From assembly GCF_028368935.1 (NCBI RefSeq), contig NZ_JAQNDK010000001.1, positions 2,294,001-2,358,000 on the forward strand: a stretch of DNA of 64,000 bases, in the 5' to 3' direction. The notes under the pieces are model-generated. The model was not told where the DNA came from, did not search any database, and saw nothing but the letters and a program-made list of their open reading frames with translations. Position 1 is the first letter of the stretch; each line of letters opens with the position of its first letter. A program made the translations under genes and the position numbers. This document shows positions 314 through 24,800 of the stretch, in pieces. The stretch is from Sorangium aterium. Its GTDB lineage: Bacteria; Myxococcota_A; Polyangia; Polyangiales; Polyangiaceae.

Positions 314-3300
314 TCACCCGCTGGTGCCCGGAGCCGCCATCCGATCCAGCTGAGCCGCGAGCCGCGCCAGCCGCGCGCGGAAGCCCGGCGCCTCGTCGAG
401 CTGCGCTGTCGCTTCCTGGAGAGCACAGGCGGCCTCCCGCGGCCGCCCGCCGGCGATCGCCATCTCGGCGCGCATCGAGAGCAGCTCGACGAGCTCGATC
501 GCCAGGAGACCGCCCCGGCACCGCGACAGCACGTCCTCCCACGGATCGGCGCTCGCGGACGGCTCGCGGGCGCGGAGGCCCTGCTCGCAGAGCGCCAGGT
601 GGACCGCGCGGTAGAACGCCCACAGCGAGGGCGCCGAGGGGTCGGGCGGGCAGCTCCGCTCGATCCACGAGAGGTGGCGGCTCGCGTCGTCGTGGCAGCG
701 CCTCGAGACGAGGATGCGCGCAAGGAGCAGGGAGCACTCGGGCGCGGCGTGCTCGAAGAACCGCCGCTCGAGCACGTGCGCGCGGCGGGCCAGCTCCAGC
801 GCCTCGTCCCCGTGGTCGCTGGCGTGGAGCAGCTCCGCCGCGTTCAGCGTGACGTGGCGCTCCAGGACGGGGTTTCCGAGCTCGCGCGCCAGCGCGATGG
901 CGTGGCGCATGTCGGCCATGGCGAGGTCGAGCTCGCGCCGCATTGCCCGCAGCGGGATGCGGCACGTGCAGGCGGCGCAGAGGTGAGGCCAGTCCTCGGC
1001 GGACGACGCCAGGGCGAACGTCTCGTCGAAGCGGGCGTTCGAGAGGTCGAGCTCTCCCAGCCACATCAAGGCGGGCGACAGGAGGAGGAGCGCGACGATC
1101 CTGGTCCCATAATCGCCCTCGGCCTCCGCGCTGGCGGCGCCTCGCGTGAGGAGCTCGACGGCCTCGGCGACCCGGCCACGCCGGAAGCAGGAGCGCCCCT
1201 CGGCGACGAGCACGCGGCCCTCGAGCGCGCGCGCGCCGAGCCGGTTGACGAGCGCGCGCACGCCGAGCCGGTTGACGAGCGCGCGCGCCTCCTCGACGCG
1301 CTCGGCCGAGCGCTCGAACTCGCCCGCCCAGTCGAGCGCGGCCGCCTCCTCGAGCAGCACGTCTGCGAGGGAGGCGTCGTCGCCGAGCTCCACGGCGAGC
1401 GCCCGCGCGGCCGCGAGGTCGTCCGTGGCCTCGCGCGTCCGGTCGACGCGGTAGCGGCTCTTGCCCCGCCCCGCCAGCGCGCGCGCTCGCCGGCGCGCGT
1501 CGTCGGCCGCCGCGAACGAGAGCGCCGCCGTGTAGTGCCGGTCCGCCTCGACGTGGCGGTGCCGCGCGAACGCGAGATCGGCCAGCGTGAGGCACGCGTC
1601 CGCCGCCGCCTCCCGCGCCCCGCACCCGCCGGCGTGCCGCGCGAGCGGCGCCAGGAGCTCCGGGCGAGGCCCCTCCGCCTCCACCCTGGCCGTGAAGTAG
1701 GCGAGCGCGCGCAGGTGGATCTGCGCGCGCTCCGCCGGGTCGAGCAGCTCGACCACCGCGTCCCGGAAGACGGCGCTCTGGAACGAGTACCGCTCGCCCG
1801 CGCCGCGCTCCAGGATCGTTTGCTCGACGAGGGCGCTCAGGCCGTAGCCCGCGTCGATGGGCGTGCCGGCGTCCCCCGCCCGGGCGATCGAGTCGAGGAT
1901 CTGCTCGAGCTCCGAGCGGGCGAACGAGTCGCCGAGCACCGCGCAGAGCCGGACGCACGCCGCGAGCTCCGGCGAGAGCGCGTCGAGCCGCCGCTCCGCG
2001 AGCCATTGCCACGCGGGCGACGGGGGGAGGCTGTCGAGCTCGGCCGTGGCGACGTAGTGGGTGCCGGCGTTCACGCGGCGCTTCACGAGGCCGGCCCGCT
2101 TGAGCGAGCGCACGAGCTCCATGAGGCACGCCGGGTTGTTGCCCGCCCAGCGCGCGAGCCGGCGCAGCGTCTCGGCAGGGGGGTACTCCGCCGGCCGCAG
2201 CAGCTCGGCGGCGAGCGCCATCGCCGCCGCGTCGTCGAGCGGCGCCAGCGCCGCGCGCTCGTGGCGCTGGGTGCGCGCGCCCCAGGCGCGGCGCACCTGC
2301 TCGAAGCGCGGGTGCGCGGCGACGAGCACCCACAGCGCGACGCCGGCGCCGTCGAGCGTTGCGTACTCGAGCGCGTCGACCAGCGCGTCGTCGGCCCAGT
2401 GCGCGTCGTCCACGATCACCGCCACCGGCCCGCGCTGGGCGCGCCGGCGCAGCGCCTCGCCGAGCGCCTGGACCACGCCGTGGTGGAACGAGGCGGGCGC
2501 GCCGCGCGCGGGCAGCGGCGACCAGCCGAGCGCCGCCGCGACCGACGGCCACGTCGCCTCGCCGAGCGCGGCGCCGAGCCGCTCGCGGCAGAACGCGGCG
2601 ACGTCCGGCGGCGCCTCCGCGGGCGCGTCGAGGACACGGCCGAGGAGCCCCGCCGCGTCGCGCGCCGCGTCGCCGAGCAGCGGCTGCGCCGCGCGGAGCG
2701 AGACAACGAGCGCCCCGGCGTCGCAGCGGAGCGCCGCCGAGGCCGCCTCCGCCGCGAGGCGGCTCTTCCCGAGCCCGGTGTCGCCGATCAGCGTGAACAG
2801 ACCGGGGCACGTGCCGTCGAAGGCCGCGCGCGCGCTCTCCGCGATCGCCGCGAGGACATCGTCGCGGCCGGCGAGCGGGGCCTCGATCTCGACCGACGGC
2901 TCGGCCTCGGCCGAGGCGGGCCGGCTGTCGCCGTCCTCGCGCGCCGGCAGGGCGCGCTCGATCTCGGCGGAGAGGGCGACGCCGGACCACGGCTCCGGCG
3001 GCAGCCAGGTCTCGGGTCGCTCCACGGCGGCGCCGTACGCCGAGACGGCGCCCCGCGCCCTGCGACGGAGGGTGACCGACGCGAGGTGCAGCGCCGCGCG
3101 CGCCCCGTGCTTCCCGGCGAGCTCGCGCGCGGCGGCGAGCGCGGCCTGCGCCGGGTGATCGGTGTCCTTGCCAGAGAAGACCGCCACGTAGCGGCTGCCG
3201 CGCTGCCGCGTGATGAACCCTTTGCGGCCGGTCACGGAGGCAATGACGGGCGACGCCGCGGTGGTCGTGTCCGCGACGAGCAGCACGACCGAGCTCCGCC

Positions 3301-18004: not shown

Positions 18005-18815
18005 GGCGCGGGTCAGGATGCCCTCGTGCCGCGGTGCTTCGGGTGCGAATGAACAGAAGAATGGTTGATCGAGACATCAGACTCTCTTTTCCTCGGCCAT
18101 CGGCGCGCGACGCAGCAGGGCGACCGGTAAGCGCATGTCACTCGACGGGCGATAGCGCGCCCGCCGAGCGATCATGAAGTCCCTGTCACCTGGATGTGGA
18201 TGAAGAGGGTACGGGGCCACCGCCAGGCACCGCTCTGCTCTCCCTGTGAGCTGAAGTGCCCGCGATCAATCACACGTTGTCCGAATTTCTCGCGCGGGGA
18301 CCGGAGCTGTCGCTCGGAGCGTAGATTTGTACCCAGGAAGGAAGCCGCGGTGCAGCTCGCGCCGAACGACAGCCCGCTCGATCGGGACCTGAGTGCCCCG
18401 CCGTCAGAGCTCGATGCTGAGGAGCACGCCAGGTCGGAACCGGTAGCCGGGGCGCAGGGCACGCCCGCCAACTTGTGCCGCCTGAGCGGGTGACGCGGAC
18501 TATCGTCGTCAAACCGCCCTCGTGCCGTCGCTGCCGAGATCCATTGAGCGGCGACGAGCCGGATCCGTGTCGTCTGCGACGTGACAAGGCCGCAACACGC
18601 CCGTCTCATCTGACGCGCCAACGCACCGCGCCGGACGGCAGGATGCTCCGCAACCCCCGCTGTCCCGGCAGCGCGGACAGCCGCCGCGCTGGGTGGTCGC
18701 AGCGCGACGTTTCGCTCTGCGCGTATGCGCTTGTCGCATCCATTGCGGGCGGCTATCCCTGAGCGTCGCAGCGGAGCGCGCGGAGCTCGCGAGCCCTAGC
18801 TGCGCGGCGAGGCGC
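18005..18815. other. Gene-free stretch
   Basis: About 800 bp before the MopE-like gene. No frame shows a recognisable domain or good start and codon pattern. I see no repeat shared with the rest of the window. Confidence 0.4.
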
Positions 18816-20114
<1,299 letters not shown>

Positions 20115-20119
20115 GGTCA

Positions 20120-21409
20120 CTACCGCACTGGGCTCTTGCCTCGAGTTTTAACGCGGAAGCGCTCGTCTGGCCAGGGATGCAGAATGCGTACAAGGGGGAT
20201 CCAGCGCTGGGCGAGGCGCTGCATCCGTGCACAGGTGGTGCGGTCACGCTGACTTCGGCGGCGGAGCGCGCGATGCCAGTGACGGGTCACCTGGGTACGG
20301 AACCACTGCAACGATCGACCGTTGGACGGTACGGCGTAATACAAGAAATGTTCTTGCACTACACTTCGCAGCCGCTTCCCCTGCTCGGGGATGAGGTGAT
20401 GTCGGCGCCGCTGCAGCTCGGCCTTGACCTCGTGCAGCTTCTTCCGCATCCGCTCCCGCATGGTTCGCCGTACGATGAGAAACTTCCCCATCCAAGTCTT
20501 TCCGCAAATGTGCGTGAAGCCCAGGAAGTTGAAGCTCTCCGGCTTTCCCTGACCCTTCTCCTGTAGATTGGACGCCGCGTGGCGCCCAAATTCGAGGATG
20601 CGGGTCTTGTCGGGGTGCAACTCCAGCGCGAACTTCCGCAATCTCTCGCGGAGATTTTGCAGGAACCGCTCGGCGTCCGTGCGGTACTGGAATCCAACGA
20701 CGAAGTCGTTCGCAAAACGCGTGATGATGACGCTCCCGCGCGCATACCGGCTCCTCCATTGCTGGACCCACAGGTCGAGGACATAGTGGAGATGGATGTT
20801 CGCCAGCAAGGGTGAAACCGTTGCTCCTTGCGGAGTACCCTCCTCCCCCCTCGTCCACTCCTCACCCTCTATCACTCCTGCGCTCAACCACTTCCGGAGG
20901 AGACGCAGCATCCTCTTGTCCGCGATTCGGTGCTCGAGAAACCTCACCATCCACCCGTGATCGATGGCATCGAAATAGCCATGGATGTCGGAATCAAGGA
21001 ACCAGCTCACCTTGCATCGACGAATCCCGACGGCGAGGGCATCCAGCGCATGGTGCTGGCTGCGCCGCGGCCGAAATCCGTACGAGAAGCCGAGGAAATC
21101 CGCTTCGTAGATGGCATTCAGCACTTCGACGACGGCTCGCTGGACGATCTTCTCCTCCAACGAGGCTATGCCGAGCGGCCGCTGCCCCCCCGTCTGCCTT
21201 CGGAATGTACACTTCCGCGACGGTTTTGCCCGGTACGCCCCACTGTGCAATCGCGCATGCAGCTCCAGGAGGTTGTCCTCTAGGTTGCCCGCGTATTGCT
21301 CCCACGTCACCCCGTCGACTCCGGGTGCCGCATTCCGTTGGTTGGAGGTAGGGGCGCGGTGCAGGTGGGCGCTCTCGAGGACCTCGCCGGCAATGACGTT
21401 CGTTCGCAC
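20120..21409 (-). CDS. Group II intron-type reverse transcriptase/maturase, degenerate
   Basis: 429 residues with clear RT blocks: GQRPLGIASLEEKIVQRAVVEVLNAIYE, FSYGFRPRRS, DSDIHGYFDAIDH, GTPQGATVSPLLANIHLHY, HPDKTRILEFG and a maturase (domain X)-like tail. The catalytic YADD box reads FAND, replacing the first metal-binding Asp with Asn. Near 21200-21240 about ten residues are out of frame between two compensating single-base indels (expected VYIPKADG, found CTFRRQTG). The N-terminus also looks shifted before AAPGVDG. It is probably inactive. The last codons (KSPVR, stop) overlap sequence resembling the 5' strand of intron domain V, whose other strand is cut off at the end of the MopE-like gene. 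Confidence 0.8.
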   Translation of the reverse strand: MRTNVIAGEVLESAHLHRAPTSNQRNAAPGVDGVTWEQYAGNLEDNLLELHARLHSGAYRAKPSRKCTFRRQTGGQRPLGIASLEEKIVQRAVVEVLNAIYEADFLGFSYGFRPRRSQHHALDALAVGIRRCKVSWFLDSDIHGYFDAIDHGWMVRFLEHRIADKRMLRLLRKWLSAGVIEGEEWTRGEEGTPQGATVSPLLANIHLHYVLDLWVQQWRSRYARGSVIITRFANDFVVGFQYRTDAERFLQNLRERLRKFALELHPDKTRILEFGRHAASNLQEKGQGKPESFNFLGFTHICGKTWMGKFLIVRRTMRERMRKKLHEVKAELQRRRHHLIPEQGKRLRSVVQEHFLYYAVPSNGRSLQWFRTQVTRHWHRALRRRSQRDRTTCARMQRLAQRWIPLVRILHPWPDERFRVKTRGKSPVR

Positions 21410-21808
21410 CGCCTCGATGATTGGGGTGTCACGGTCCGAGGTGCATCAAGGACACGGAGCGAGGTCGGGCGAATATCCACTACGGAGAGCGTGCGGAAAC
21501 AGCCAACCATCGTGTTTTTATGCATCATCAAGCTCCCCACTCGGTGTTCCCAATGGGTGGATTGAGGTTCCGCCGCCCGCGTTCTTGACCTTGTCGTTGA
21601 TCCTCCGGGCGATGCATTGGGCACCGTCCACGAAGGCGACGATCGAGCGCTTCCGCGCGCTGCTGCATGAGAGCTCGGTCGAGTGGTGGACGGCGACGGC
21701 GTCTGCGAGCCAGCGTGCGGGGCAGATCCTGCCGCGATGCCATCGACAGGGGGCCGCGGTGTGGGGGGCGGCGTGTGCGCTGGGGATCCGCGGGCGTAAG
21801 ATGGGAAA
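21410..21808. other. Gene-free stretch upstream of RT and giant kinase
   Basis: About 400 bp between two divergently read genes. It could hold the 5' part of the group II intron RNA on the minus strand, but I cannot fold it by eye, and I see no canonical GUGYG 5' end. It otherwise acts as the promoter region for the giant kinase. Confidence 0.3.
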
Positions 21809-24800
21809 ATGGATGATGTTCGGCGCCTCGCCCGCTCAAAGCGATGGCGACGCGCGCCGATTATGGCAGCATGCATCGCACATTCCCGCAGCAGGGCTCC
21901 TGTGGACACCACCATTCCCGTCTGCTCCGATCCAGGGGCTTCGTCCCGTTACGCCATCATCGAGGTCCTCTACGAGGGTTCAGACACCCTTCTTTACCGG
22001 GGTGTGCGCGAAGACGACGGCCTTCCCGTGGTGCTCAAGGTCCTTCGGCGCGACCACGCGAGCCCTCGCGCCCTCGAGCGGCTGCGCCACGAGTACGAGG
22101 TCGCCCGGGCGCTCGAGACCACGGCCATCATCAAGCCCTATGCGCTCGAGACGCTCGGCGGTCAGCCGGCGCTGGTCCTGGAGGATTTCGGCGGCGTGTC
22201 GCTCGATCGGCTCCAGGACTGGCCGATACCTCTACCTCTCGAGCGCTTCTTTCCCGTCGCCGTCCGTTTGGTCGAGGCGCTCAGCGCGCTGCATCGACAC
22301 GGCGTCGTCCACAAGGACATCAAGCCTCAAAACCTGCTCCTCCACCCCGCCACCGGCGAGGTGAAGATCACCGACCTGGGGATTGCGTCCCGGGTACCCC
22401 GCGAGCTCCAGCACCTCGAGCACGTCGGACTCATCGAGGGGACCCTGGCCTACATGGCCCCGGAGCAGACAGGCCGGATGAACCGCTGGATCGACGAGCG
22501 GACCGATCTCTACTCCCTCGGCGTCGTCTTGTACGAGATGCTGACGGGCGCTCTGCCGTTCCGGGCCAGTGATCCTGTTGAGTGGGTCTATTGCCACATC
22601 GCCCAGAAGCCGGTCCCGCCGCACGCGCTCGTCCCGTCGATTCCCCCGCTCCTGTCGGAAGTCGTGCTCAAGCTGCTCTCCAAGGCCGCCGAGGAGCGTT
22701 ACCAGAGCGCGGCCGGCCTGCGGCACGATCTGGACGAGTGCTTCGCAAGGTGGCGGACGAGCGGCGCCATTGCGCCCTTCGCGCTCGGGGCGCGCGACGT
22801 CTCCGACCGGTTCCAGGTGCCGCAGCGGCTGTACGGGCGCGAGCGCGAGGTGGAGGCGCTTCTCGCCGTGTTCGAGCGGGTGGTGGCGCAGGGCCGGCCA
22901 GAGCTGGTGCTGGTGTCGGGCTACTCGGGCATCGGGAAGTCGTCGCTGGTCGCCGAGCTGCACCGGCCGATCGTGAGGCAGCGGGGGTTCTTCCTCGCCG
23001 GCAAGTTCGATCAAACCGCGAGGGACGTCCCCTACCGCGCTTTCCATCAGGCGTTCCGGGCGCTTTTGCAGGAGATCCTCGGCGCGAGCGAGGAGCAGGT
23101 CGAGCGCTGGAGACAGCGCTTCCGGGAGGCCCTTGGCTCGCACGGCAGGCTGCTCGCCGACGTGCTCCCCGAGCTCGGGCTGCTCCTTGGCCCGCAGCCG
23201 CCCGTGCCCGAGCTGCCGCCCGCCGAGGCGCAGAGCCGGCTGCTCGCGACGCTTCAGCGCGTGGTCGCGGCGTGCGCCCAGAAGGAGCACCCCGTGGCGC
23301 TCTTCCTCGACGATCTGCAGTGGGCCGACGCGGCCAGCCTCCAGCTGCTCGAGCAGCTCGCCACCTACACCGGGCCCGCGCACCTGCTGCTGATCGGCGC
23401 GTACCGCGACAACGAGGTCGGCCCCGCGCACCCGCTACGGCTCACGCTGGCCGAGGCGCGGAAGCGCGGCGCCACCGTCTCCGAGCTCGTCCTCGAGCCG
23501 CTCTCCGCGGCCCACGTCACGGCGCTCGTCGCCGAGGCGGTCCACGCGCCGCACGCGCCCACAGAGCAGGTCGGGCCGCTCTCGCAGCTGGTTTACGAGA
23601 AGACCGGCGGAAACCCGTTCTTCGTGCTCCAGTTCCTGATCGCGCTGCACCAGGAGGGGCTCATCGCCTTCGACGCGGAGGAGGCCAGGTGGCGGTGGGA
23701 CATCGCCGCGATCCGCGACAAGGGGTTCACCGACAACGTCGGCGAGCTGATGGCGGGCAAGCTCAAGCGGCTCTCGGGCCCGACGCGGGACGCGCTCAAG
23801 TTCGCTGCGTGCCTCGGCAGCAGCCTGGAGCTCGACACGCTCGCGGTGGTCGCGGGCCGTCCGGCGGCGGAGCTCCGCGACGCGCTCGAGGAGGCCGTGC
23901 GGGAGGGGCTGCTGCTCCGCCGGGGCTCGGCCTATCGATTCCTCCATGACCGGGTACAGCAGGCCGCTTACTCGCTCATCCCGGCGGGACAGCTCGCCGA
24001 GATGCACCTGGGGATCGGGCGGCTGCTCCTCACGGCGCAGCGCGCGGAGGAGCGCGACGAGGCGCTCTTCGATGTCGTCGGCCATCTCAACCGCGGCGCC
24101 GCGCTCCTGCATTCCCAGGCGGAACGGGACGAGGTCGCGGCGCTGAACCTGCGCGCCGGCAGGAAGGCCAAGGCGGCCGCGGCCTTCCAGACCGCCGCCG
24201 CGCTCTTCGCCGCGGGCCTCTCGCTGCTCGCGCTGGGCTCCTGGGAGACGCAGCACGAGCTGACCTTCGAGCTGACCTTCGAGCGCGCGCACGTCGCGTA
24301 CATCACCGGCGGCTTCGACGAGGTCGAGCGGTTCCTGGACGAGCTCATGGAGCGCGCGAGGACCCGGCGCGAGACGGCCGCCGCCGTCGAGCTCGCCGTT
24401 GCCTTCTACCAGACCCGCGGGCAATACGCCCGCGCGGTAGAGATCGGCCTCTCGTGGCTCCGCGCCTGCGACATCGATCTGCCGCTCCACCCCGCCGGCG
24501 CACAGATTGACAGGGAGACCGAGAGCGTCTGGCAGGCCCTGGGCGACCGCGTCATCGAGGACCTGATCCATCTGCCCCCCATGACGGACCCGGAGATCGA
24601 GATCACGATGGGCGTGCTGCAGCGTATGGTCCTCCCAGCGGTCTTCGTGGACCCGGACCTGCACGTCCTCGTCGTCCTGCGCATGGTCAAGCTCAGCCTG
24701 CGCCACGGCAGCGCCGAGAGCTCCGCGTATGCGTACACTGCCTTCGCGAGGGTGATCGGCCCGACGTTCGGGCGATACCAGGAGGCCTATCGGTTCGGCA

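Follow-up and report, generated by a model that had tools for sequence, protein, structure and literature searches.

A group II intron relic with an interrupted domain V next to a MopE-like gene of Sorangium aterium

Background

Most group II intron copies in bacteria are truncated or inactivated, according to passages of two reviews (PMC4424553; PMC4028801). For introns whose intron-encoded proteins (IEPs) have no endonuclease domain, a set of classes has been proposed, and the sections dealing with them give an FADD box as characteristic of group g2, with M.xa.I1 and Sg.ce.I1 (PMC3552965). A degenerate IEP occurs in O.i.I2, an intron with radC exons; as described in part of PMC4424553, its frame is open but has lost YADD, and a maturase function is presumed.

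We analysed a window of 64,000 nucleotides of the S. aterium genome, that is, the whole stretch of DNA to which the positions below refer. Positions 20118-21336 of its minus strand are the relic of a truncated group II intron, consisting of the IEP from about residue 24 onwards and 18 nt of domain V (DV). In IEP sequence, in the 5' strand of DV and in a stop codon placed 13 nt into DV, the fragment is like the introns without an endonuclease domain as those sections of PMC3552965 class them. Unlike them, it has no domains I-IV, no 3' strand of DV and no recognisable helix of domain VI (DVI), while it carries FAND as its catalytic box and a scrambled stretch at residues 66-73. Truncated group II intron copies likewise consist of a partial IEP with a partial ribozyme or none, and the fragment does not differ from them in any basic way; here, both ends are missing. 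The open frame without YADD recalls O.i.I2, but the ribozyme of the fragment is gone. Since most bacterial copies are truncated according to the reviews, the fragment is an ordinary one, and taken alone it means little: one more dead piece of a retroelement.

We consider it very probable that a retromobile group II intron has left a dead remnant at the locus, which, with both ends lost, a FAND box and a pair of indels, can neither splice nor move. An intron encoding an IEP with RT and maturase domains would have come in by horizontal spread. Its 5' part, with domains I-IV and the N-terminus of the IEP, would then have been lost, as would the 3' strand of DV and most or all of DVI at the other end. 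The 3' lesion may have brought the tail of a convergent MopE-like gene up against the DV loop, at a point just beyond the stop codon of the IEP. We infer both the order of these events and the mechanism of deletion, for which microhomology or trimming of a loop between inverted repeats could be responsible. Against this explanation stand a frame that is open over 429 codons, a break that spares the stop codon of the IEP, the scores of some relatives in conserved columns, which come close to those of the fragment, and a +1 indel that could be a sequencing error (see below).

Results and discussion

The RT fragment and its 5' border

The ORF as called covers 20120-21409 on the minus strand. Its 429 aa product matches TIGR04416 (group_II_RT_mat) with 317.7 bits over residues 24-385, against a cut-off of 300, and Pfam RVT_1 with 110.4 bits. 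The solved structures closest to it are those of group II RTs (GsI-IIC RT, maturase RTs and LtrA), and tblastn comparison with relatives gave identities of up to 64% over 414 aa. The GC content of the fragment is 0.59-0.61, versus 0.70-0.76 in the MopE-like gene. There are 13 matches to TIGR04416 in the own genome (13.47 Mb). Together with the broken active site and the missing domains described below, the TIGR04416 score bears out the sequence-only reading, in which the ORF was taken for a decayed group II intron RT.

The same reading had remarked that the N-terminus looked shifted, and clear IEP homology indeed starts only at residue 24-25 (around 21336); the N-terminus of the IEP was not found. 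According to TIGR04416 and tblastn, the decayed IEP, with its RT part and maturase domain X, runs from about residue 24 to its natural stop codon (20120..21336, minus strand). Residues 1-23 of the ORF show no convincing RT character. As a native RT N-terminus they are doubtful, with weak and ungapped similarity only.

Upstream of the fragment, positions 21337..21705 separate it from the homologous part of a kinase gene, where the homology of the four best matches starts at 21706-21760. Intron domains I-IV were not detected in this interval. An nhmmer DNA profile, made from the region 5' of the RT core in 23 relatives, had no match at 21337-21900 with E<=10; the same profile does find relatives outside its training, e.g. 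L065 and L061. A Pfam search of four ORFs in 21337-21705 gave no match, and 21420-21705 had no DNA match in the genus among the matches listed. At the border itself, 21333-21376 is 87% identical over 44 nt to a frame at positions 1501-1544 of locus L041 (genome G011), which we take from its reading to encode a TPR protein.

Domain V and the missing ribozyme

The remnant of DV lies at 20118..20135 on the minus strand. Its 18 nt, GAGCCCAGTGCGGTAGTG, comprise the 5' strand with the AGC triad and the loop, and the same letters stand at the same place in relatives with a complete DV. They overlap the C-terminal end of the IEP frame, stop codon included, so the suspicion that the C-terminal codons run into the start of DV proved right. 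No 3' strand that would complete the hairpin was found with Rfam, with RF00029 or with a covariance model of our own.

An Rfam scan of the entire window with gathering scores gave no match, and at E<=10 the region 19500-22500 had only two matches to snoRNA families, far under their gathering scores. RF00029 detected 6 places across the own genome, none of them at the fragment locus. Our own model, R1, was derived from relatives having the IEP C-terminus. In 28 of these 46, a pattern search picked out a whole DV-DVI whose end was recognisable; 14 of the other relatives were without the end pattern and 4 without the DV pattern, several of them being distant rows or contig ends. R1 was built on 22 aligned relatives out of the 28. 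In this alignment DV measures about 34 nt and has a two-nt bulge, DVI has a bulge holding an A, and 14 of the 27 predicted pairs are changed on both sides.

Of 25 loci outside its training, R1 gave 24 a score of 27.6 bits or more. The one miss, L081, is itself cut in DV, and in L090 the match comes from another intron, the second one at this locus. At 19000-23000, with filters off, R1 gave the junction a score of only 5.2 bits (E 1.8); its best match in this region (13.5 bits, with a rough E of 0.03) fell inside the MopE-like gene. In the own genome R1 recognised 2 places, with 50.3 and 39.3 bits, neither at the fragment locus. A covariance search, which had been proposed as a check on the broken ribozyme, has thus been carried out with RF00029 and R1, and neither revealed a complete DV or DVI here. 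R1 saw no DVI helix; ten letters, which could belong to the neighbour, match the native 3' end.

From the sequence alone, the RT had been thought to end inside DV at a neighbour's stop codon. The stop does lie in the loop of DV. However, this position is typical of the lineage, and the break comes 2 nt beyond it. The fragment and 17 of 50 measured rows of relatives have the start of the IEP stop at precisely the same place, 13 nt into DV; 7 more rows have it at +12 or further in, and another 7 were not measurable. With 17 relatives ending in this manner, we rejected the IEP end within DV as a defect. The +13 rows include L079, L051, L053, L054, L068, L082, L100, L101, L152-L155, L157 and L158. 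Their last codons, mostly S-P/R-V-R-stop, are at the same time the 5' strand of DV. The lineage therefore shows a protein frame overlapping the core of a ribozyme: the AGC of DV codes for serine, and the DV loop holds the stop. That the fragment shares this IEP end explains the overlap between codons and DV that is seen in its sequence. On a tree of 52 rows, those nearest to the fragment by path were L068, L151, L067, L100 and L158, and no small clade with strong support contained the fragment. On this tree the +13 label takes 5 changes (14 rows carry it, with unmeasured ones counted as 'other').

The 3' border

Intron letters reach 20118 and are followed by the tail of the MopE-like gene in opposite orientation. 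This convergent neighbour (18693..20114, plus strand) contains Cu-binding_MopE repeats and a choice-of-anchor V domain. The 17-base hairpin that had been noticed across the border, CGGTAGGGTCACTACCG, was located at 20109-20125, an inverted repeat over both stop codons (MopE-like TAG, 20112-20114; IEP TAG, 20120-20122, minus strand). As intron-sense RNA it folds into a stem of 9 bp closed by a loop of 5 nt. None of 200 shuffles folds as well as the 56-nt stretch 20085-20140 (z -2.76), whose energy includes other small stems.

Comparing the 3' end of the MopE-like gene with that of relatives without the intron, as had also been suggested, gave a divided answer. The congeners G002 and G005 have a tail ...GCGGTAG with no intron alongside, and therefore the tail and its TAG are probably the neighbour's own. 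This tail is absent from G004, the closest congener copy (89%), and those of G001, G003 and the paralogue on the own contig 5 differ from it as well. The frame that follows the gene in G001, G002, G003, G005 and the contig-5 paralogue starts with letters like ATGCTCTACCG (ATGATCTACCG in G001); from its reading it is presumably an aldo/keto reductase. The contig-5 paralogue (L114, G000:C5:1213643-1214446) is an 81% identical match to the MopE-like gene, and what lies downstream of it is still the neighbour known from several congeners.

The loss of the pairing strand of DV is thus confirmed, but its replacement by the end of the MopE-like gene is only one of two readings. It is also quite possible, though we would stop short of calling it probable, that the 3' lesion of the same dead fragment is an internal deletion of about 60 nt, from the DV loop to the end of DVI. 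What was kept would then be the final 10-12 nt of the intron (the 3' strand of DVI with the bulged A, CCCTACCGCG...), coinciding with the MopE-like tail, and the hairpin would be the intron's own inverted repeat minus the loop. Read in the direction of the intron, the letters at the junction, CCCTACCGCG, are the 3' end of 15 of the 22 aligned introns, and 4 of the 22 combine this end with GCGGTAG in DV, i.e. they have the same inverted repeat. The missing GCGGTAG in G004 points in this direction, too. In G002 and G005, however, the MopE-like gene has the motif in the same position with no intron beside it, so that the tail needs no intron, and an internal deletion would require two events. It would also be at odds with any MopE-like tail of an empty site that reads ...CGCGGTAGGGTC. 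Because the last bases of the neighbour equal a native intron 3' end, internal deletion and terminal truncation are indistinguishable from the junction; we lean slightly towards a terminal truncation.

Damage to the protein

Codon comparison confirmed that the catalytic box has changed. Codons 232-235 (20708..20719, minus strand) read TTT GCG AAC GAC and encode FAND in place of YADD or FADD, as had been recognised before; by this D to N exchange at ORF residue 234, the IEP is without its first catalytic aspartate. FAND in active introns of relatives would have spoken against the sequence-only reading, but it occurred in none of 73 distinct aligned segments, all from loci fetched for the analysis. 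These carry YADD (58), FADD (11), WADD (2), YADA (1) and YCDD (1).

Two compensating indels had been suspected to scramble about ten residues near 21200-21240. Comparison with the codons of six relatives shows that the pair is present, although it is located at about 21191-21214 and affects eight residues. Residues 66-73 (21191..21214, minus strand), which are enclosed by a -1 and a +1 indel, are out of frame and read KCTFRRQT, versus e.g. RVFIPKAD in relatives; VYIPKADGG is readable in ORF 20994-21305, a different frame of this strand. The +1 indel sits within a run of seven G and could be a sequencing error, in which case the gene would be frameshifted instead.

We examined the conserved columns in a leave-one-out test on 24 rows (the fragment and 23 relatives). 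The fragment breaks 6 of 85 invariant columns (R66K, K71R, D86E, V230T, D234N and G353E, the first two of which belong to the scrambled stretch). Of 148 columns conserved at >=90%, it breaks 16. Among the relatives, 22 of the 23 break 0-5 invariant and 2-13 nearly invariant columns. Only L062, whose row contains stops, is worse than the fragment, with 11 of 96 and 24 of 155 columns broken. The excess in the fragment is moderate because the scores of relatives come close to it, at the 90% level above all those of L074 (13 broken columns) and L064 (12). Under an assumed mutation spectrum, the probability that the frame stays open is 0.22 after 30 neutral substitutions and 0.06 after 60. With the 429-codon frame still open, the decay is therefore probably recent, or else the ORF remains under some constraint.

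One might suppose that the ORF, dead as an RT, has parted from its ribozyme and persists in this host as a trans-acting maturase or RNA-binding protein, the break being no accident. The open frame and the position of the break beyond the stop would fit, and bacterial O.i.I2 offers an example of an IEP that lost YADD and has a presumed maturase function (in the part of PMC4424553 cited above). Yet it seems very unlikely in view of a protein whose N-terminal region is gone, whose residues 66-73 are scrambled and whose conserved columns are broken throughout. Moreover, the other RTs of the genome that exceed the cut-off are distant (one, 41% identical, is listed at E<=1e-60), and apart from the two R1 matches of 50.3 and 39.3 bits no DV of this lineage was found in the genome. 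A non-intron RT (retron, DRT or group-II-like stand-alone RT) can be dismissed almost with certainty, as the NCBIfam matches to Drt2 (49.7 bits), Drt3a (44.3 bits) and retron_St85 (32.8 bits) stay far from the cut-offs of 390, 200 and 235, only TIGR04416 is passed, and the 5' strand of DV is fused to the frame at the place typical of the lineage.

Related loci

A survey of 377 genomes yielded 12 places in 10 genomes. Besides the fragment these are 11 places, 8 of which have a complete DV-DVI (L152, L153, L155, L157, L158, L159, L082 and L100). The remaining 3 are L154, which is cut in DVI, L151, which is cut in DV, and L156, which is without DV-DVI. In L151/L090 and in L081/L160, the DNA that cuts DV presumably carries a transposase-like or integrase-like frame, judging from the reading of the frames. 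With 8 of 11 surveyed places having a complete DV-DVI, we do not infer any special recurrence of breaks in the DV loop.

We could also observe nested group II introns in L161 (G170:C1:10542500-10549500, in the same genome as L158). There, an RT frame is split at about residue 150 by a second intron; the DV-DVI match of the latter ends at position 3156 of L161, one base ahead of the outer RT, which resumes at 3155. In the own genome, group II RTs, some split and some complete, are clustered at C1:3995-4001 kb (L164), C2:2141-2148 kb and C5:540-549 kb. Some of these RTs contain an in-frame TAG, and two DV matches lie about 0.7 kb apart in L164; the clusters are possibly nested introns as well.
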